A stretch of 64,000 nucleotides of DNA from contig JAHLKT010000003.1 in assembly GCA_020444545.1 (NCBI GenBank), positions 62,001 to 126,000 of the forward strand, in the 5' to 3' direction. Under the pieces are notes generated by a model. That model was not told the origin of the DNA, did not search any database, and saw nothing but the letters and a program-made list of their open reading frames with translations. Positions 15,053 through 26,447 of the stretch are shown piece by piece. The stretch's first letter is position 1, and each line of letters opens with the position of its first letter. This DNA comes from Desulfarculaceae bacterium. Its GTDB lineage: Bacteria; Desulfobacterota; Desulfarculia; Desulfarculales; Desulfarculaceae. The translations under genes were made by a program, and so were the position numbers.

Positions 15053-15979
15053 TTAGTCCACCACCGGCCGGGGCAGCAGGCCCGCGCCTTCGATGATCTC
15101 CTTGGCGCGGTGCTCCCACTCGATAGCCATGACGTGCACCCCGGCCACGCCTTCCATTTCCTTGAACTCCTCGATCTGCTCGATGGCCATCTTGATGCCC
15201 TCGGCGGCCTGGTCTTTCTTGTCCACGCCCTTGAGCCGCTTGATGATGTCGGCCGGCACGTCCATGCCCGGCACGAACTTGGCCATGTAGTTGGCCATAC
15301 CCACCGACTTCATGGGGGTCACGCCGGCCAGGATGTAGCACTTCTCGTGCAGGCCCTTGTCCACGGCCCGTTTCATGAACTCGCGGAACTTGTCCATGTT
15401 GTAGATGCACTGGGTCTGCACGAAGTCGGCCCCGGCCGCCACCTTCTTGGCCAGGCGGGTCACGCGGAACTCGAAGGGATCGGCAAAGGGGTTGGAGGCC
15501 GCCCCGATGAATATCTCGGGCGAGCCGTCCAGGTCCTTGTCGTTGAGGAATTTCTTCTCGTCGCGCATCTTGGCGAAGGCGGCCAGAAGCTGCACCGAGT
15601 CCAGGTCGTAGACGTTCTTGGATTCCGGATGCGAGCCGAAGCGCTGATGGTCGCCGGACAGGCACAGGACGTTCTTGATCCCCAGGGCGGTGGCCCCCAG
15701 GATGTCGGCCATCAGGGCCAGGCGGTTGCGGTCGCGGCAGACCATCTGATAGTTGGGCTCCAGGCCCTCGTCGATGAGGATCTTGCAGGCGGCCCAGGAG
15801 GCCATGCGCACCACCGCGGTCTGGTTGTCGGTGATGTTGACCGACTCCACGATGCCCTTGAGGTAGCCGGCCTTGTGGCGCACTTCCTCGGCGTTGTTGC
15901 CCATGGGCGGACCAAGCTCGCCGGTGACCGCGAAATGCCCGGCGGACAGAACTTTCTCCAGATTGCTGCCGGCTTTCAT
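15053..15979 (-). CDS. metF: Methylenetetrahydrofolate reductase
   Basis: This 308-residue TIM-barrel flavoprotein reduces methylene-THF to methyl-THF, or runs in reverse. Family motifs include FAVTGELGPP near the start (the Glu is catalytic), LCLSGDH (about residue 114), FIGAASNPF (about 158) and FVQTQCIYNMDKF (about 188). The ATG at 15979 follows GGAGGA by a normal distance and overlaps metV by ATGA. The next genes upstream are metV, mvhD and hdrA. This is the arrangement of the Hdr-linked MetFV type, so electrons probably come from or go to the Hdr module and not directly to NADH. Confidence 0.92.
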   Translation of the reverse strand: MKAGSNLEKVLSAGHFAVTGELGPPMGNNAEEVRHKAGYLKGIVESVNITDNQTAVVRMASWAACKILIDEGLEPNYQMVCRDRNRLALMADILGATALGIKNVLCLSGDHQRFGSHPESKNVYDLDSVQLLAAFAKMRDEKKFLNDKDLDGSPEIFIGAASNPFADPFEFRVTRLAKKVAAGADFVQTQCIYNMDKFREFMKRAVDKGLHEKCYILAGVTPMKSVGMANYMAKFVPGMDVPADIIKRLKGVDKKDQAAEGIKMAIEQIEEFKEMEGVAGVHVMAIEWEHRAKEIIEGAGLLPRPVVD

Positions 15980-16644
15980 TGCTTCAGATCCTCCCTGACC
16001 CGCTTGCGCGGGCCGCCGTCGCGCGCGGTGAGCCAGTTCTTGTTGGGCCACACCTGCTCCAGCTCATCCAGCCGGCCCATGGCGTCCATCTTCTTGACGA
16101 TCTGGTCCCACACGCAGGGAACCTCGGGGCTGATCTCGCAGTTGCCGCTGGCCGAGCCGCCGCAGGGCCCGTTCATCAGGCTCTTGGAGCACCGGGCGAT
16201 GGGGCAGAGGCCGCCGAAGTTGTGCACCAGGCAGTTGCCGCAGCTTTGGCAACGCTCGGCCCAGACCCCGTGTTCCAGGGCCCCGCCGATGAAAGTGGTG
16301 TTGATGCCCGGGAACACCGGCACCTTGGGATAGCGCTCGGCCATGAACTGGGGCCCCACCCCGCAGGCGATGGAGACGATGGCGTCGTAATCCTCGGCCA
16401 CCTCGGCCAGCTCCTCGATGTACTCGGGGTCGCACTGGCGCTCCAGGGTTTTTTCCTCCACCGTGGGAGGCTGGCCGTTCTTCTTGCGGGCGATGCGCAA
16501 GGCGGTGGCCAGAATGCCCACCTCCTTTTCGCCGCCCACATTGCAGACGGTCACGCACCCCCGGCAGCCCAACACCAGGACCTTGTCGCGGCCCTCGATC
16601 ATGGCCAGAATCTCTTCCAGAGGCTTGCTGTCACCTACGATCAT
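15976..16644 (-). CDS. metV: MetV-type zinc/iron-sulfur subunit of MTHF reductase
   Basis: This 222-residue cysteine-rich protein is of the MetV / methylene-THF reductase C-terminal type. Its N-terminal half has LGCRGCVTVCNVGG (about residues 26-39). Its C-terminal half has CQSCGNCL, then GLCPIARCSKSLMNGPCGG, then CEISPEVPC, giving many cluster or zinc ligands. In Moorella MetV is required for MetF activity. It probably links MetF to the MvhD/HdrA proteins encoded upstream. It is translationally coupled to metF. Confidence 0.9.
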   Translation of the reverse strand: MIVGDSKPLEEILAMIEGRDKVLVLGCRGCVTVCNVGGEKEVGILATALRIARKKNGQPPTVEEKTLERQCDPEYIEELAEVAEDYDAIVSIACGVGPQFMAERYPKVPVFPGINTTFIGGALEHGVWAERCQSCGNCLVHNFGGLCPIARCSKSLMNGPCGGSASGNCEISPEVPCVWDQIVKKMDAMGRLDELEQVWPNKNWLTARDGGPRKRVREDLKQ

Positions 16645-16683: not shown

Positions 16684-17115
16684 TCAGGCCGCCTTGGCCG
16701 TATTCAACGGGCTGGGCCCCAGCTCCGCGATGCTCTCGGTGAACTCGTTGGCCACCTGGGCGAAGCGCGGTCCCTCGGCCGAACTCATGTTGAACATCTC
16801 GATCCGCTCGGGCTCAATACCCAGAGCCCCCAGAACCTTTTTGACATACTCCACCTTGCGGCGGGCCTTGAAGTTGCCGGTGAGGAAGTGGCAATCGCCT
16901 TCCATGCAACCGGCCACGTAGACGCCGTCGGCGCCGTCTTCAAAGGCCTTGAGCAGATGCAGGATGTCCACCCGCCCCGAGCAGGGCAGCTGGATGACGC
17001 GCACGTTGGTGGGGTACTGCAATCTCATCGAACCTGCCAGGTCCGCGGCCGAGTAAGCTCAGTACTGGCAGCAGAAGGCTACGATTTTGGGCTCGAAGCT
17101 TGCGCTCAACTTCAT
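16684..17115 (-). CDS. mvhD: MvhD-type hydrogenase iron-sulfur subunit, selenoprotein
   Basis: This is a 143-residue protein if the in-frame TGA at 17059-17061 is read as selenocysteine at residue 19. From the ATG at 17115 it reads KIVAFCCQY-U-AYSAAD, which aligns with the CCxxC motif of MvhD/VhuD. Downstream motifs continue unbroken: LPCSGRVD, AGCMEGDCHF and FNMSSAEGP. MvhD transfers electrons between partner enzymes and HdrA through a [2Fe-2S] cluster. AGGAGG lies directly against the ATG, so TTG at codon 3 is an alternative start. A conventional ORF caller would begin at Met30 (17028) and miss the redox motif. Confidence 0.9.
17030..17044 (-). promoter_or_regulatory. SECIS-like hairpin in mvhD
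   Basis: On the minus strand, 14 bases after the TGA codon, GGACCT pairs with AGGTTC (one G-U) around the loop GGC. A small stem with an apical G about 15-35 nt after UGA fits bacterial selenocysteine insertion elements. This supports recoding at residue 19. Confidence 0.65.
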
Positions 17116-17185
17116 CCTCCTCTTTGGGGCCTCCGCTTGGGGCGGCCGGGGTGGGCTCCGGCGGGCGGCCGGAACCCGCTGAACC

Positions 17186-20100
17186 TTAACCCATCGCCGC
17201 CCTTTCCTTGGCCAGGATCTGGGCGTCGGTGAAGTGTTGCAGGGTGATGGCCTTGCCGGGGCACTCCGCCGCGCAGGCGCCGCAGCCGTAGCACTGGGCC
17301 ACCTCTATCTTGGCCGCGCCGTCCACGATCTTGGGCACCCCGTAGGGGCAGGTGCGCACGCAGGTCAGGCACACCGAGCACTTGTTGGGATCCACCGTGG
17401 CCACCACTCCGCCCACGCGGATGAGGTTCTTGGCCAACACGGTTAGCGCCCGGCCGGCGGCCGCGTTGGCCTGGGCGATGGCCTCGTCGATGGGCTTGGG
17501 GTAATGGGCCAGGCCCGCCTGGTAGATGCCCTCGGTGGCGAAGTCCACCGGCCGCAGCTTGGCGTGGGCCTCCAGGAAGAAGCCCTCGGCGTTCAGCGGG
17601 GTCTTCATGGCCTCGGCCAGCTGGTGCACCTCGTTGGGCAGGATGGCCGCGGCCAGCACCAGGCGGTCCACCTCGAAGCTGATGGGCACGCCCAGCACGT
17701 GGTCCGTGGCGGTGACGGCGATCTTGCCGCTCTGGCCCACCGCGGCCTGGGGCTTGTCCTCCAGCTTGTAGCGGAAGAAGAGCACCCCCGCCTCGCGAGC
17801 CTTCTTGTACAGGTCCTCGCGCACCCCGTAGGTGCGGATGTCGCGGTAGAGGATATAGACCTGGGCCTCGGGGTTGGCCTCCTTGACCTTGATGGCGCTT
17901 TCCACCGAGTGGGTGCAGCACAGGCGGGAGCAGTAGGGCCGCTCCGGCTCGCGGGAGCCCACGCACTGGATGAAGGCCACCGAGCTCCAGTCCTTGGGCG
18001 CGGCGGGGTTGCCCCGGAGCTCCATGTCCAGCTCCAGGGAGGTGAGCACCGCGTCGCTCTCGCCGTAGAGGTACTCGGTGGGCCTTAACTCATGGCCGCC
18101 GGTAGCCAGCACGATGACCCCGTGCTCCACGTTGGTCTCGGCCCCGCCCTCGGCGGTGATGGTGCTCACGTAGTTGCCCACGAAGCCCTTGAACCCGGTG
18201 AGTTCGCTATTGAGGTGCAGGGTGATGTTCTTATTCTCATTGACCAGGCTGACCAGGTCCTCCAGGTAAGGCGCCACGTCTTCGCCCTTCCAGGAGTTGA
18301 GCAAATAGCGGGCGTTGCCGCCCAGCTCGCCGGTCTTTTCCACCAAATGCACCGGATAGCCGGCCTTGCCCAGGTTGAGCGCGGCCACCATGCCGGCCAC
18401 ACCGCCGCCCACCACCACGCCGGCCTTGTTCAGCGGCAGCTCCACCTGGTGCAGCGGCTCGATGAGCGCGGCCTTGGCCACGGCCATGCGCACCAGGTCC
18501 TTGGCCTTGGCGGTGGCCTTCTCGGGCTCGCCCTGGTGCACCCAGGAGTCCTGGTCGCGGATGTTGGCCATCTCGAAGAGGTACTTGTTCAGGCCCGCCT
18601 CGCGGATCGTCTCCTGGAACAAGGGCTCGTGGGTGCGGGGGCTGCAGGAAGCCACCACCACCCGGTTGAGGTTGTTCTCCTCGATCTTGTCCTTGATCTT
18701 GTTCTGGGTGTCCTGCGAGCAGGTGAACAGGTTGTCGTCCACGAACTCCACGAAGGGCAAGGTGGCGGCATACTCGCGCACCGCGGGCACGTCCACGATG
18801 CCCCCGATGTTGATGCCGCAGTTGCACACGAACACGCCCACCCTGGGCTGCTCCCCGCTGATGTCCTTCTCGATGGGGTAGGTCAGCTCCTTGGTCAGGG
18901 TGCCCCGGCTCTCGGAGATGTCCAGGCTGGCCACGCAGGCCGCCGCGCTGGCTTCCATCACCGCCTGGGGGATGTCCTTGGGGCCCGCGAAGGCGCCGCA
19001 GGCGAAGATGCCCTCGCGGCTGGTGCCCACCGGGGCGAAGGATGAGGTCTCGGTGAAGTTGTAGCCGGTGAGGTCGATGCCCAGGCGATGGGCGGTCTCG
19101 ATGGCCTCGGGTCCGGTCTGGAGGCCCACCGAGAGGACCACCATGTCGAACTCCTCCTCCATGGCCTCGCCGTTCTCGGTAACGTACTCGATGCGCAGGC
19201 GGTCGCCCTCCACCGGGTCCACGGTGTGCACCCGGGAGCGGATGAAGCGCACCCCCTTCTCGTCCTCGGCCCGGTTGTAGTACTTCTCGAAGTCCTTGCC
19301 GTAGGTGCGCATGTCCATGAAGAAGATGGTGGCGTCCAGCTCCTCGGAGGCGTGCTCCTTGGCGATCACCGCCTCCTTGATGGCGTACATGCAGCACACC
19401 GCCGAGCAATAGCCATTGTCGCAGTGGTTGATGTCGCGGCTGCCCACGCACTGGAGCCAGGCGATCTTCTTGGGCTCCACCCCGTCGCTGGGGCGCTGGA
19501 GGTGGCCCTGGTAGGGGCCCGAGGCGCTCAGGATGCGCTCGAACTCCATGGCCGAGACCACGTTGGGATGCCCGGCGTAGGAGTAGGTGTCGAACAGGTT
19601 GGGGTCGAAGGGATCGAACCCAGGCGCCAGGATCACGCTGCCCACGTTGAGGGTCATCTCGGTGGGCTGCTGGTCGTGGGCCGGGGCCTTGGCCTTGCAG
19701 GCTTCCACGCACTGCAAGCACTCGCAGCACACCCCGCAGTTCAGGCAGCGGTCGCCCTCGGACTGGGCCTGCTCGGCCTTGAGGCCCAGCTCGAACTCCT
19801 TGTAATCGTGCTTGCGCTCCTCGCCGCCGCGCATCTCCATGTGCGCCCGGGGAGCCAGGTCGATGTCCAAGGGGATGGGGTTGAACTCGCGCTCGCCCTC
19901 GGGCCTGAGCTCGGGCTTCACGCGGCCCTCGGCCAGGTCCTGGCCTTCGAACTGGCGCAACATGCTGCGCGCCGCCTCGCGGCCGGCGGCCACCGCGCCG
20001 ATGGCGATCCAGGGGCCGGTGACCACGTCGCCGCCCGCGTACACGCCTTCCAGGTTGGTGGCGTTGGTGGTGGGGTCGGCGGCGATGGTGCCGCGCGGGC

Positions 20101-21613
20101 TCAGCTCCAGGCCGTGGTCCTCGCCCAGCCAGGAGAGGTCGGTGCGCTGGCCGATGGCGGTGATAATCAGGTCGGCGTCCATGGGGGTGGTGTGCCCCTC
20201 GTCGAACTCGGGGGCGAAGCGGCCCTCCTCGTTGAACACCCGGGTGCACTTCTTGAGCACCAGGCCCACGGCCTTGCCGCCCTCGGCCTTGACCTCCATC
20301 ACGCCGCGGCGGTGCACGAACTTGACGCCCTCTTCGGTGGCCTCGCTGATCTCCCAAGGGCTGGCCGGGCACTCCTCTTCGGACTCCAGCATGACCATGG
20401 TCACGTCGCTGGCGCCCTGGCGGATGGCGGTGCGGGCCGCGTCCACGGCCACGTTGCCGCCGCCCACCACGATGACCTTGTCGCCTTGAGCGGTCTCGTT
20501 GCCCAGGCTCACGTCCTGGAGGTAGTCCAGGGCGGCCACCACCTGCTCGCTGTCCTCGCCGGGCGCGCCCAGCTTGAAGCTGGCCGGAGCGCCCACGCCC
20601 AGGAACACCGCGTCGTAGTCGTCGCGCAGGTTCTGGAAGGTGGTGTCCGTGCCAATGGGGCTGTTGAGCTTGATCTCCACGCCCATGCCCTTGATCATGT
20701 CCACCTCGGCCTGCAAGGTCTCCATGGGCAGGCGGTAGGAGGGCACGCCCACGGCCAGCGCGCCGCCGGCCACGGGCAGGGCCTCGTAGATCACCGACTT
20801 AACGCCCGCGCGGGCCAGATGGTAGGCGCAGGACAACCCGGCCGGGCCGGCACCCACGATGGCCACCTTCTCCGAGCGCGGCTCGCACTCGGGCTGGGCG
20901 ATGTTGGTGATGCCCACCTCGTCGGCCACGAAGCGCTTGATGTCGCGGATGGCGATGGCCTCGTCCACGTCCATGCGGCGGCAGGACTCCTCGCAGGGAT
21001 GGGGGCAGATGCGGCCGATGGTGCCCGGCAGGGGCAGGTCCTTCATGATGATGTTCAAGCTCTCGGCGAAGTTGCCGGTCTTGGCCATCTGCACGTAGCC
21101 CTGCACGTTGAGGTTGGCCGGGCAGGCCACCAGACAAGGGGCGCGGTCCATCTTGGTGATGGAATAGGCGTTGGGGAAGGCCTGGGCATAGCGCTTGAAG
21201 GTCGCCTTGCGCTCACTCAGCCCCTGGTCGAACTCGTTGGGCACCGAGACCGGGCAGGCCTCGATGCAGTCGCCGCAGGCGGTGCAGGCGTCCATGTCCA
21301 CGTAGCGGGGCTCCTGATGCACCTCCACCGAGAAGTCGCCCGCCTCGCCGGAGATGGATTGCACCTCGGCCTGGGTGATGATTTCGATGTTCAGATGGCG
21401 CCCGCACTCCACCAACTTGGGGGAGATGATGCACATGGCGCAGTCATTGGTGGGGAAGGTCTTGTCAAGCTGGGCCATCCTTCCGCCGATGGCCGTGGTC
21501 TTTTCAACCAGGTACACGTAGTATCCGGCGTTGGCCAAGTCCAAAGAAGCCTGCACCCCGGCGATGCCGGCGCCGACCACCATTACCGCTCCGACCTTGC
21601 TGCTTTGCGCCAT
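17186..21613 (-). CDS. hdrA: HdrA-GltD-HdrA fusion flavoprotein
   Basis: This 1475-residue cytoplasmic electron-transfer protein has these modules in order. (1) HdrA N-part: FAD loop MVVGAGIAGVQ (about 11-21), FPTNDCAMCII, and the cluster motif CTACGDCIEACP (about 110-121). (2) An inserted GltD/NfnB-like unit (about 155-640): CLVACPANLNV, CPHPCEESC, FAD loop VAIVGAGPAGLS (250), NAD(P)H loop VIVVGGGNVAVDAA (380) and GVYAGGDVVTGP, then CLNCGVCCECLQC. (3) The rest of HdrA from about 655, including CVGSRDINHC and CCMYAIKE. (4) A second HdrA module with GVFVCNCGINIGG and FAD loop VVVGGGVAGMVAAL, ending in ferredoxin motifs CSVCLTCVRTCP and CYGCGACAAECP. Start ATG 21613 follows AAGGGA. It heads the operon with mvhD, metV and metF. 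Confidence 0.93.
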   Translation of the reverse strand: MAQSSKVGAVMVVGAGIAGVQASLDLANAGYYVYLVEKTTAIGGRMAQLDKTFPTNDCAMCIISPKLVECGRHLNIEIITQAEVQSISGEAGDFSVEVHQEPRYVDMDACTACGDCIEACPVSVPNEFDQGLSERKATFKRYAQAFPNAYSITKMDRAPCLVACPANLNVQGYVQMAKTGNFAESLNIIMKDLPLPGTIGRICPHPCEESCRRMDVDEAIAIRDIKRFVADEVGITNIAQPECEPRSEKVAIVGAGPAGLSCAYHLARAGVKSVIYEALPVAGGALAVGVPSYRLPMETLQAEVDMIKGMGVEIKLNSPIGTDTTFQNLRDDYDAVFLGVGAPASFKLGAPGEDSEQVVAALDYLQDVSLGNETAQGDKVIVVGGGNVAVDAARTAIRQGASDVTMVMLESEEECPASPWEISEATEEGVKFVHRRGVMEVKAEGGKAVGLVLKKCTRVFNEEGRFAPEFDEGHTTPMDADLIITAIGQRTDLSWLGEDHGLELSPRGTIAADPTTNATNLEGVYAGGDVVTGPWIAIGAVAAGREAARSMLRQFEGQDLAEGRVKPELRPEGEREFNPIPLDIDLAPRAHMEMRGGEERKHDYKEFELGLKAEQAQSEGDRCLNCGVCCECLQCVEACKAKAPAHDQQPTEMTLNVGSVILAPGFDPFDPNLFDTYSYAGHPNVVSAMEFERILSASGPYQGHLQRPSDGVEPKKIAWLQCVGSRDINHCDNGYCSAVCCMYAIKEAVIAKEHASEELDATIFFMDMRTYGKDFEKYYNRAEDEKGVRFIRSRVHTVDPVEGDRLRIEYVTENGEAMEEEFDMVVLSVGLQTGPEAIETAHRLGIDLTGYNFTETSSFAPVGTSREGIFACGAFAGPKDIPQAVMEASAAACVASLDISESRGTLTKELTYPIEKDISGEQPRVGVFVCNCGINIGGIVDVPAVREYAATLPFVEFVDDNLFTCSQDTQNKIKDKIEENNLNRVVVASCSPRTHEPLFQETIREAGLNKYLFEMANIRDQDSWVHQGEPEKATAKAKDLVRMAVAKAALIEPLHQVELPLNKAGVVVGGGVAGMVAALNLGKAGYPVHLVEKTGELGGNARYLLNSWKGEDVAPYLEDLVSLVNENKNITLHLNSELTGFKGFVGNYVSTITAEGGAETNVEHGVIVLATGGHELRPTEYLYGESDAVLTSLELDMELRGNPAAPKDWSSVAFIQCVGSREPERPYCSRLCCTHSVESAIKVKEANPEAQVYILYRDIRTYGVREDLYKKAREAGVLFFRYKLEDKPQAAVGQSGKIAVTATDHVLGVPISFEVDRLVLAAAILPNEVHQLAEAMKTPLNAEGFFLEAHAKLRPVDFATEGIYQAGLAHYPKPIDEAIAQANAAAGRALTVLAKNLIRVGGVVATVDPNKCSVCLTCVRTCPYGVPKIVDGAAKIEVAQCYGCGACAAECPGKAITLQHFTDAQILAKERAAMG

Positions 21614-21754
21614 AGATATCGTCCCTTGCAAACGGTTCTCCGCCTGGCCCCGCGCCAGGCGGATTCAGCGGCCGATCACCTGGTCAGGGACCTTGCCACC
21701 TTGTGAAAATCATAATTATTTACCTCGGAAAGATACCAAATATATTCGATGGGC

Positions 21755-21979: not shown

Positions 21980-23752
21980 CTAGAACACGCCCTTGACCTT
22001 GCCGGTCTCGACGTCGACGTCCACGCGGCGGTAGGCCGGGTTGGAGCCGGTGCCGGGCATCAGGCTGATGTTGCCCGCCACGGGCACCACGAAGCCGGCG
22101 CCGCCGTAGGTGAGAATGTCGCGCACGAACAGGCGCCAGTCCTTGGGCACGCCCTTGAGGGCCGGGTTGTCCGACAGCGACAGGTGGGTCTTGACCATGC
22201 AGGTGCCCAGCTTGGACAGCTCGGCGTCGGCCTCGATCTTCTTGGCCTTGGCCAGGGCGGCGTCGGAGTAGTCCACGCCGTCGGCACCGTAGACCTCCTT
22301 GGCGATGAGGCTGATGCGCTCGCGCAGCGGAGTCTCCAGCTCGTAGAGCAGCTTGAACTCGTTGGGCTCGTTGCACGCGTCGATGACCGCGTCCGCGAAC
22401 TCCAGAGCGCCTTCGCCGCCGTGCTCCCAGTGACGCGACAGGGCCACGCGGGCGCCGGCCGCCTCGCCCATCTCACGCACCTTGGCGATCTCGGCGTCGG
22501 TGTCGGTGTAGAAGGCGTTGATGCACACCACCGGGTTGATGCCGGCCTTGCGCACGGTGTTGATGTGGTGGACCAAGTTCTCGCAGCCCTTCTCGACCCA
22601 CTCGACGTTCTCGCCCTTGTACTCTTCGGGCATGGGCTTGCCGGGCACCGGGATGGGAGCGCCGCCGTGGCACTTCAGGGCCCGGATGGTGGCCACGACC
22701 ACCGCGCAGTTGGGCTTCAGGCCGCTGAAGCGGCACTTCAGGTTCCAGAACTTCTCAAAGCCGATGTCCGCGCCGAAGCCCGACTCGGTCACGTGGTAGT
22801 CGCCCAGCTTCAGGGCCACGCGGTCGGCGATGATGGAGGACTGGCCGATGGCGATGTTGGCGAAGGGACCGGCGTGCACGAACACCGGCTGGCCTTCCAG
22901 GGACTGCAACAGGTTGGGGTTCAGGGCCTCGACCATCCAGGCGGTCATGGCGCCGTCGACCTGCAGATCCTTGGTGGTGATGGGCACGCCCTGCTTGTTG
23001 TAGGCCACCACGATCTTGCCCATGCGCTCGCGCATGTCGGCCAGGTCCTTGGCCACGGCCAGAATGGCCATAACCTCGGAGGAAACCGCGATGCCGAACT
23101 TGGACTGCATGGTGAAGCCGTCGGTGCGGCCGCCCAGGCCCATGACGATATTGCGCAGGCCCTGGCAGCAGAAGTCGATGATCCAGCCCATTTCCACGTT
23201 AGTGGGGTCGATGTCCAGGCGCTCCATGTTGGACAGGCGCATGAGCTGCTCGTCGGTGTAGTTGCGCTCGTGCTGCATACGGCTGTTCAGCGCGACCATG
23301 GCCAGGTTGTGGCTGTTCATGATGGCGTTGATGTCGCCGGTGAGGCCCAGGGAGAACGGGGTCAAGGGGATGCACTGGGCCAAGCCGCCGCCGGCCGCGG
23401 AACCCTTGATGTTCATGGTGGGGCCGCCGGAGGGCTGACGGATGGCCGCGGTCACGTTGACCTTGCGCTGGCCCAGGCCCTCGACCAGACCCATGGAGGA
23501 GGTGGACTTGCCCTCTCCCAGGGGGGTGGGGGTGATGGCGGTGACGTCAATGTACTTGCCGTCGGGGCGATCTTTGAGCCTATCGAGCAGCTTTTTGAAG
23601 TCCACCTTGGCCACGTAGTGACCATGCAGGAGCAGTTCCTCCTCGGTTATCCCCAGCTCGCTGGCGATATCCTTGATGGGCTTCATGTACTCTTCGGCTG
23701 CCTCAGCGATTACGTAATCAGGATTTTCTCTGGGATCTGGCAGCTTGGGCAT
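21980..23752 (-). CDS. fhs: Formate--tetrahydrofolate ligase
   Basis: This 590-residue enzyme forms 10-formyl-THF from formate, ATP and THF, the entry step of the methyl branch of the Wood-Ljungdahl pathway (or its ATP-yielding reverse). The P-loop [16 protein letters not shown] (about residues 75-90) and the family motif [20 protein letters not shown] (about 104-123) are intact. The C-terminus retains [20 protein letters not shown]. Start ATG 23752 is preceded by AGGAGG. It stands alone, with its own terminator, between the hdr-met operon and nfnAB. Confidence 0.97.
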
Positions 23753-24176: not shown

Positions 24177-25028
24177 ATGTACAAGATCCTTTCCAAGCGG
24201 GAGCTGGCCCAGGGCACTGTGGTCGAAAACGAGATCGAGGCTCCCCGCATCGCGGCCAAGGCCCAGCCCGGCCAGTTCGTCATCCTCAGGGTCAACGAGA
24301 CCGGCGAGCGCATTCCGCTCACCATGGCCGACACCGACCCCCGGCGGGGCACCATCACCATCATCTACCAGGTGGTGGGCAAGACCACCGCTCTGCTCAA
24401 GAGCCTGGCGGTGATGGACTCCATCATGGACATCGCCGGGCCCCTGGGCACCCCGACGCCCATCGAGAAAAAGGGCACCATCATCTGCGTGGGCGGCGGC
24501 ACCGGCGTGGCCGTGCTGCACCCCATCACCCGGGGCTTCCATGAGGCGGGCAACAAGGTCATCGGCATCATCGGGGCGCGCACCAAGGACTTGCTCATCA
24601 TGGAAGACAAGATGACCAAGGCCACGGACGAGCTTTACGTCTGCACCGACGACGGCTCCTACGGCCACCACGGCTTTGTGACCGACGTCTTGCGCGAGCA
24701 GCTGACCAAGCTGGGCTCCGAGGTCAAGGAGGCGGTGTGCATCGGGCCGGTGCCCATGATGAAGTTCTGTTGCAAGGTCACCGAGGAGTTCGGGGTGCCC
24801 AGCATGGTCAGCCTGAACGCCATCATGGTGGACGGCACGGGCATGTGCGGCTGTTGCCGGGTGCAGGTGGGCGGCGAGACCAAGTTCGCCTGCGTGGACG
24901 GCCCGGAGTTCGACGGCCACAAGGTGGATTTCGAGGGGCTTTCCAAGCGCCTGACCGCCTACATGCCTCAGGAGAAGGAGGCCATGGGCCTCTATGAAAA
25001 GAAATGCTCCTGCGGCAAGCAGGGTTAA
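24177..25028 (+). CDS. nfnA: NfnA-like ferredoxin-NADP reductase subunit
   Basis: This 283-residue protein of the dihydroorotate dehydrogenase electron-transfer type has an FAD-binding barrel (VENEIEAPRIAAKAQPGQFV), a nucleotide-binding loop IICVGGGTGVAVLHP (about residues 101-115) and the [2Fe-2S] motif DGTGMCGCCRV with a further Cys in FACVDGPEF (about 221-245). It is the small subunit of NfnAB, which couples NADPH oxidation to NAD and ferredoxin reduction or the reverse. GGGGAGAG precedes the ATG at 24177. nfnB follows after 15 bp. Confidence 0.9.
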   Translation: MYKILSKRELAQGTVVENEIEAPRIAAKAQPGQFVILRVNETGERIPLTMADTDPRRGTITIIYQVVGKTTALLKSLAVMDSIMDIAGPLGTPTPIEKKGTIICVGGGTGVAVLHPITRGFHEAGNKVIGIIGARTKDLLIMEDKMTKATDELYVCTDDGSYGHHGFVTDVLREQLTKLGSEVKEAVCIGPVPMMKFCCKVTEEFGVPSMVSLNAIMVDGTGMCGCCRVQVGGETKFACVDGPEFDGHKVDFEGLSKRLTAYMPQEKEAMGLYEKKCSCGKQG

Positions 25029-25043
25029 GGGGGGAGAAGCATC

Positions 25044-26447
25044 ATGGCCGATAAAAAGGAAAAGACTCCCCGCACTCCCATGCCCGAGCAGAAGCCCGAG
25101 GTTCGCCGCCGCAACTTCGAGGAGGTGCCCCTGGGCTACCAGGCCGAGATGGCCCAGATCGAGGCCAGCCGTTGCTTGCAGTGCAAGAAGCCTGCTTGCG
25201 TGCAGGGCTGCCCGGTGAACGTAAACATCCCAGCCTTCATCCACCACATCGCCGAGGGCAACTTCGCCAAAGCGGTGTTCCAGCTCTGGGAGGACAACTC
25301 CCTGCCCGCGGTCTGCGGCCGGGTGTGCCCCCAGGAGAACCAGTGCGAAGGCAACTGCATCGTGGGCAAGAAGGACAAGCCCGTGGCCATCGGCAACCTG
25401 GAGCGCTTCGCCGCGGACTGGGCCCGGTCCGAAAAGGACCTGCCCCTGCCTCCGGTGGCCCCCAAGACCGGCAAGAAGGTGGCCGTGGTGGGATCGGGCC
25501 CCGGCAGCCTCACAGTGGCCGGCGACCTGATCCGCAAGGGCCACGAGGTCACGGTCTACGAGGCCTTCCACAAGCCCGGCGGCGTGCTGGTCTACGGCAT
25601 TCCCCAGTTCCGGCTGCCCAAGGAGATCGTGGCCTCGGAGGTCAACTTCCTGGAGCGCCTGGGCGTTAAAGTCGAGTGCAACGTGGTGGTGGGCTCCACC
25701 ATCACCGTGGACGAGCTGCTCACCGAAGAGGGCTTTGACGCGGTGTACCTGGGCGTGGGCGCGGGCCTGCCCCGCTTCGTGGGGGTGCCCGGCGAAAACC
25801 TCATCGGGGTCTACAGCGCCAACGAGTACCTCACCCGGGCCAACCTGATGAAGGGCTACCTCTTCCCCGAGTACGACACCCCGCTGATCAAGGGCGACCA
25901 CGTGTGCGTGTTCGGCGGAGGCAACGTGGCCATGGACAGCCTGCGCACCGCCATGCGCATGGGCTGCGACGACGTGAAATGCGTGTACCGCCGCTCCGAG
26001 GAGGAGCTGCCCGCCCGCGGCGAGGAGATCCACCACGCCAAGGACGAGGGCATCCAGTTCTTCCTGCTGCACTCGCCGCTGCGCTTCATTGGCGACGAGG
26101 ACGACCGGCTCAAGGCGGTGGAGCTCCAGGAGATGCAGCTCGGCGAGCCCGACGAGAGCGGCCGCCGGCGGCCCGAGCCCATTCCCGGCTCGGTGAAAAC
26201 CATCGACTGCGACCTGGCCATCATCGCCATCGGCTCCGGGGCCAACCCGCTCATCACCCGCACCACGCCGGGGCTGGAGGTGAACAAGTGGGGCTACATC
26301 GAGGCCGATGACGACGGCAAGACCAAGAAGGCCAAGGTCTGGGCCGGCGGCGACATCGTCACCGGCGCGGCCACGGTGATCAAGGCCGCCGGGGCCGGGC
26401 GCACCGCGGCCAACAGCATGCACCGCTACCTGACCTGGGGCTGGTAG
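25044..26447 (+). CDS. nfnB: NfnB-like NADPH/ferredoxin oxidoreductase (GltD-type) subunit
   Basis: This 467-residue flavoprotein has the N-terminal cluster region RCLQCKKPACVQGCPVNVNI (about residues 44-63) and CGRVCPQENQCEGNC, then FAD loop VAVVGSGPGSLTVAG (about 147), NADP loop VCVFGGGNVAMDSLRTA (about 288) and VWAGGDIVTGAATVI near the end. Next to NfnA this is the large subunit of the electron-bifurcating NfnAB transhydrogenase. Its neighbourhood with fhs and hdr-met fits ferredoxin/NAD(P)H balancing in the folate pathway. It resembles the module inserted in the HdrA fusion. Confidence 0.92.
   Translation: MADKKEKTPRTPMPEQKPEVRRRNFEEVPLGYQAEMAQIEASRCLQCKKPACVQGCPVNVNIPAFIHHIAEGNFAKAVFQLWEDNSLPAVCGRVCPQENQCEGNCIVGKKDKPVAIGNLERFAADWARSEKDLPLPPVAPKTGKKVAVVGSGPGSLTVAGDLIRKGHEVTVYEAFHKPGGVLVYGIPQFRLPKEIVASEVNFLERLGVKVECNVVVGSTITVDELLTEEGFDAVYLGVGAGLPRFVGVPGENLIGVYSANEYLTRANLMKGYLFPEYDTPLIKGDHVCVFGGGNVAMDSLRTAMRMGCDDVKCVYRRSEEELPARGEEIHHAKDEGIQFFLLHSPLRFIGDEDDRLKAVELQEMQLGEPDESGRRRPEPIPGSVKTIDCDLAIIAIGSGANPLITRTTPGLEVNKWGYIEADDDGKTKKAKVWAGGDIVTGAATVIKAAGAGRTAANSMHRYLTWGW

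Follow-up and report, generated by a model that had tools for sequence, protein, structure and literature searches.

Does the in-frame UGA codon that interrupts an mvhD-like reading frame in a Desulfarculaceae bacterium terminate translation, or is it read as selenocysteine (Sec)? Within the window, which comprises the entire 64,000-nucleotide stretch of DNA that was analyzed, translation of open reading frames traced a minus-strand frame that passes through a UGA at 17061-17059 and specifies an MvhD/FlpD protein. With UGA read as Sec, translation of 16684-17115 on this strand gives MKLSASFEPKIVAFCCQYUAYSAADLAGSMRLQYPTNV..., and the mvhD product matched the PF02662 profile over its full length (1-123; E=1.9e-52; 176.9 bits compared to a curated cut-off of 22.3). 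The UGA occupies the position of the last cysteine in the CCxxC motif (C15-C16-x-x-U19), and the gene terminates at a second UGA that is used as a real stop. The frame, the motif, the location of the TGA and the apparent Met at 17028-17026 (Met30), in frame after the UGA, all are as described in the first-pass annotation. Its warning that a standard gene caller would shorten mvhD and discard the redox motif also was borne out, with Met30 as the caller's start.

Table 1. Coordinates of mvhD, its sequence elements and the neighboring genes in the window.
Feature	Coordinates	Strand	Remarks
hdrA-like flavoprotein gene, 1481 aa, inserted GltD-type NAD(P)H domain, second HdrA-like half	17186..21631	-	
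Shine-Dalgarno AGGAGG (17121-17116) and 6-nt spacer to TTG 17109	17110..17121	-	sequence inspection
mvhD coding region, FlpD/MvhD PF02662, in-frame UGA, probable TTG start, UGA stop	16684..17109	-	
UGA codon predicted to be read as Sec19	17059..17061	-	aligned to Cys in 56 non-redundant orthologues
Bacterial SECIS hairpin CGGACCU-GGC-AGGUUCG, 7 bp, 3-nt loop with G first	17029..17045	-	loop 21 nt after UGA
metV, PF12225, MTHFR C-terminal partner	15976..16644	-	
metF, methylene-tetrahydrofolate reductase, PF02219	15053..16051	-	

The gene extent had been placed initially at 16684-17115. The gene and frame stand, but the start probably does not. The AGGAGG sequence directly abuts the ATG at 17115 with no spacer and is separated from the TTG at 17109 by 6 nt. 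The codon aligned with this TTG is ATG, GTG or TTG in many close relatives, and codon 1, which aligns with the ATG at 17115, often is not a start codon among them, with several such cases. On the basis of the spacing and the start codons of relatives at the same codon, translation probably begins at TTG 17109, which would yield a protein of 141 amino acids including Sec. The ATG at 17115 was set aside as the start on the same two grounds.

A hairpin tied to the UGA codon

The stem-loop reported previously downstream of the TGA is real, and its 7-bp stem is one pair longer than had been noted. The element begins ~13-14 nt 3′ of the UGA, with the arms CGGACCU (17045-17039) and AGGUUCG (17035-17029) enclosing the loop GGC (17038-17036). 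The stem, loop and 21-nt distance from the UGA to the loop agree with the published model for bacterial SECIS elements, which specifies a stem of 4-16 bp, a loop of 3-9 nt with G in the first two loop positions and a spacing of 16-37 nt (PMC13188914). An Rfam scan of the window returned no match.

The hairpin was followed through 93 orthologues that were non-redundant after removal of duplicates. Codon 19 is UGA in 37 of these genes, TGC or TGT in 56, and nothing else. A hairpin of at least six contiguous pairs at the fixed position is present in 36 of the 37 UGA genes, with six or seven contiguous pairs around the loop, compared to none of the 56 Cys genes. As shuffling of synonymous codons, with the codon usage of each gene retained, leads to an expectation of 0.26 UGA genes (and 0.45 Cys genes) with the hairpin, its occurrence is not due to chance. 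The single UGA gene without the fixed-position hairpin (L144) forms GCUGACCU-GGC-AGGcUCAGC, an 8-bp stem with one bulge that is made from different bases than the hairpin of the other UGA genes. Residues D25, L26 and A27 are specified by the single codons GAC, CTG and GCA in all 37 UGA genes (100%), and by two, five and four codons, respectively, in the Cys genes (n=56). Among the most closely related UGA genes, the codons of the hairpin show a pS of 0.044, compared to 0.584 downstream. When the 48 nt that follow the codon were folded, the total energy was not lower in UGA than in Cys genes; only the specific hairpin discriminates between the two groups. Overall, the hairpin is a SECIS element that is under selection.

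The same UGA is found in 16 Desulfarculaceae genomes, including that under study, with 83-99% identity, and also in other families of the phylum; some of the 16 genomes are present in two collections. The Sec/Cys state changes at least four times on supported branches of the tree and seven times on the best tree. In the four supported independent contrasts the hairpin follows the UGA in three, shows the opposite pattern in none and does not differ in one, which is too few for significance (sign test, p 0.25). The UGA/Cys exchange and the hairpin that changes with it provide a natural SECIS set across Thermodesulfobacteriota. Desulfobacca sp. STE_27 (L109) carries mvhD genes in tandem (6001 and 6531): one has UGA and the hairpin, and its neighbor has Cys and lacks the hairpin. 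The copies are sisters on the tree and constitute a natural paired comparison.

Decoding of the UGA codon

The genome examined (4.38 Mb, 11 contigs, 100% complete) was searched for the genes for Sec synthesis and insertion, as had been recommended, and all four were found: selC, which specifies tRNA-Sec with a UCA anticodon (73.2 bits), selB (398 bits), selA (610 bits) and selD (379 bits). The selD gene has one in-frame UGA (L018, G000:C1:335187-336113), and its product, selenophosphate synthetase, probably is itself a selenoprotein. The selA gene is present in 17 of 20 Desulfarculaceae genomes, and two of the three that lack it are only 70-71% complete. The complete sel set and the UGA-linked hairpin support the earlier proposal that the organism decodes UGA with SelB at mvhD. 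In the proposed mechanism, SelB and Sec-tRNA would insert selenocysteine at this codon, as directed by the SECIS hairpin just 3′ of it, and read-through would produce full-length MvhD. Insertion of Sec almost certainly occurs to judge from these genomic features, and that mvhD is a functional selenoprotein gene can be proposed with great confidence.

The absence of the sel machinery, a translation start at Met30 and a sequencing error had been named in the first-pass annotation as grounds for abandoning this proposal; all three were tested and none held. It is very improbable that the UGA is a genuine stop or a lesion in a pseudogene, with the cell using a short protein from Met30. A gene caller would choose Met30, which follows the UGA in the same frame, but residues 7-18 that precede the UGA have a pN/pS of 0.125 vs. 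0.234 downstream: the upstream codons are under purifying selection, i.e., are coding. Moreover, a start codon upstream is conserved in relatives, and Met30 is just as conserved in the Cys orthologues, where no restart is required. The fixation of the same UGA across many families, along with the frozen codons of the hairpin, also argues against a stop or lesion. The likelihood of a sequencing or assembly error at 17059-17061 is negligible, because the same UGA recurs in the Desulfarculaceae genomes noted above and in many others.

An open frame through the UGA would, by itself, look alike if this codon were reassigned genome-wide, e.g., to Trp or Gly, or were suppressed without a SECIS element. 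Nevertheless, mvhD itself ends at UGA and the code therefore is not reassigned; homologues carry Cys at the site, never Trp or Gly; and the genome encodes tRNA-Sec with the UCA anticodon. In addition, the hairpin is tied to the UGA. This pair of alternatives is scarcely credible. Decoding of the UGA as Sec is the favored reading, and affects annotation, as a standard caller would drop residues 1-29, and with them the redox motif, from a core electron-transfer subunit in at least 16 Desulfarculaceae genomes.

Predicted location of Sec19, and UGA codons in FlpD paralogues

Residues Cys16, Cys45, Cys70 and Cys75 are present in the mvhD product and are kept in nearly all 16 FlpD paralogues of the genome, a conservation which suggests that they are ligands of a [2Fe-2S] cluster. 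In five paralogues (L031-L035), these four Cys residues are kept but there is no Cys at position 19. As position 19 varies while the other four cysteines stay, Sec19 probably lies next to the predicted cluster rather than serving as one of its four core ligands.

In-frame UGA codons occur in three of the 16 FlpD genes, namely mvhD and two paralogues that are outside the window. One paralogue (L029; G000:C2:200281-200649, minus strand) has the UGA at position 19, followed by a hairpin that differs from that of mvhD (CUGGA-GUU-UCCAG). The second, an FlpD/MvhD paralogue (L024; G000:C5:28518-28886, plus strand), has Cys at position 19 and the UGA at position 70 (SGU-HPGDC), which is a predicted [2Fe-2S] ligand. 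Of 30 homologous loci examined, 14 share the position-70 UGA; synonymous variation is reduced among them, and all but one (L165) have a strong stem 3′ of the codon. The predicted fold in L024 has no G in the first two loop positions and may not fit the standard bacterial SECIS model. Archaeal family members with several Sec residues have been mentioned (PMC13188914); no report of Sec at position 70 in bacterial MvhD was found in the literature consulted. A speculative and rather unlikely scenario is that Sec19, rather than binding the [2Fe-2S] cluster, acts next to it as a redox-active selenol. By forming a selenenylsulfide with either Cys15 or Cys16, it would gate the passage of electrons between the HdrA-like flavoprotein and MetVF; with the paralogue's Sec at predicted ligand 70, the family would then have two uses of selenium. 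Elsewhere in the window, motif filtering of in-frame TGA codons left 85 candidates.

The gene cluster and related systems

The gene order at the locus is hdrA(GltD-type)-mvhD-metV-metF. Among loci with enough flanking sequence, HdrA, MetV and MetF are encoded nearby on the same strand in 11 of 11 with UGA and 31 of 39 with Cys. MvhD of Sporomusa ovata pulls down HdrA, HdrB and MetF, and the corresponding genes in Moorella form one transcription unit (PMC9430772). The gene order, the conserved cluster and the data from these two organisms suggest that MvhD probably is an electron relay between an NAD(P)H-oxidizing HdrA and methylene-tetrahydrofolate reductase: via its predicted [2Fe-2S] cluster the protein would connect the HdrA-like flavoprotein with the MetVF enzyme of the Wood-Ljungdahl pathway. 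This arrangement points to Sec use at an electron relay that feeds, or drains, methylene-tetrahydrofolate reductase. A sequence search with MetV identified no solved relative. Further genes beside the cluster resemble Wood-Ljungdahl and redox partners, to judge from their translations only: the minus strand encodes an apparent formate-tetrahydrofolate ligase at 21980-23752, and the plus strand encodes NfnAB-like subunits at 24177-26447.

That Sec-containing MvhD/VhuD-type proteins exist, as stated in the first-pass annotation, is documented. The Sec-containing FrhD/MvhD family, also termed FrhD/VhuD, was catalogued by Zhang et al. (2006) with 19 bacterial members tabulated, including those of Syntrophobacter fumaroxidans (8), Syntrophus aciditrophicus (4) and Moorella thermoacetica (1), and with Sec/Cys exchanges in both directions (PMC1794560). 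The likeness to mvhD is drawn at the level of the family. That study highlighted hydrogenase operons of the type glpC-hdrA-frhD-frhG-frhA, whereas the partner here is metVF. The family appears, with the motif CxxU, in a 2026 review (PMC13188914). One Sec-MvhD is known in Desulfococcus multivorans (PMC5109826), and no paper that joins Desulfarculus with selenoproteins was found in the literature consulted. Desulfobacterium autotrophicum HRM2, described in 2009, has four (mvhD1, mvhD2, mvhD3 and mvhD5; PMC2702500). Like the organism studied here, it is a sulfate reducer in which Sec-MvhD is encoded next to HdrA or HdrL, the set of sel genes is complete, and paralogues occur with and without Sec. 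However, it belongs to another family of the phylum, and its HdrA1, HdrA2, HdrL1 and HdrL3 carry Sec, whereas the HdrA-like gene in the window has no in-frame UGA.

The HdrCBA-MvhD-MetVF systems of M. thermoacetica and S. ovata share the hdr-mvhD-metVF cluster, and Moorella HdrA (~1487 amino acids, including an additional NAD(P)-binding part) is similar in size to the HdrA-like protein (PMC9430772). A [2Fe-2S] cluster is predicted in MvhD in both cases. In contrast, those systems include HdrB and HdrC, neither of which was identified directly beside the cluster described here, and the term selenocysteine is absent from that report. MvhD/VhuD of the methanogen HdrABC-MvhAGD complexes (PDB 5ODC, 7BKB and 8RVU) shows homology along almost its entire length (E about 1e-39 to 1e-42), but has Cys at the Sec19 position in the three chains that were aligned and serves hydrogenase or formate dehydrogenase (PMC6019823) instead of methylene-tetrahydrofolate reductase. 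The mvhD product described here joins the already known Sec-MvhD proteins of related sulfate-reducing bacteria.
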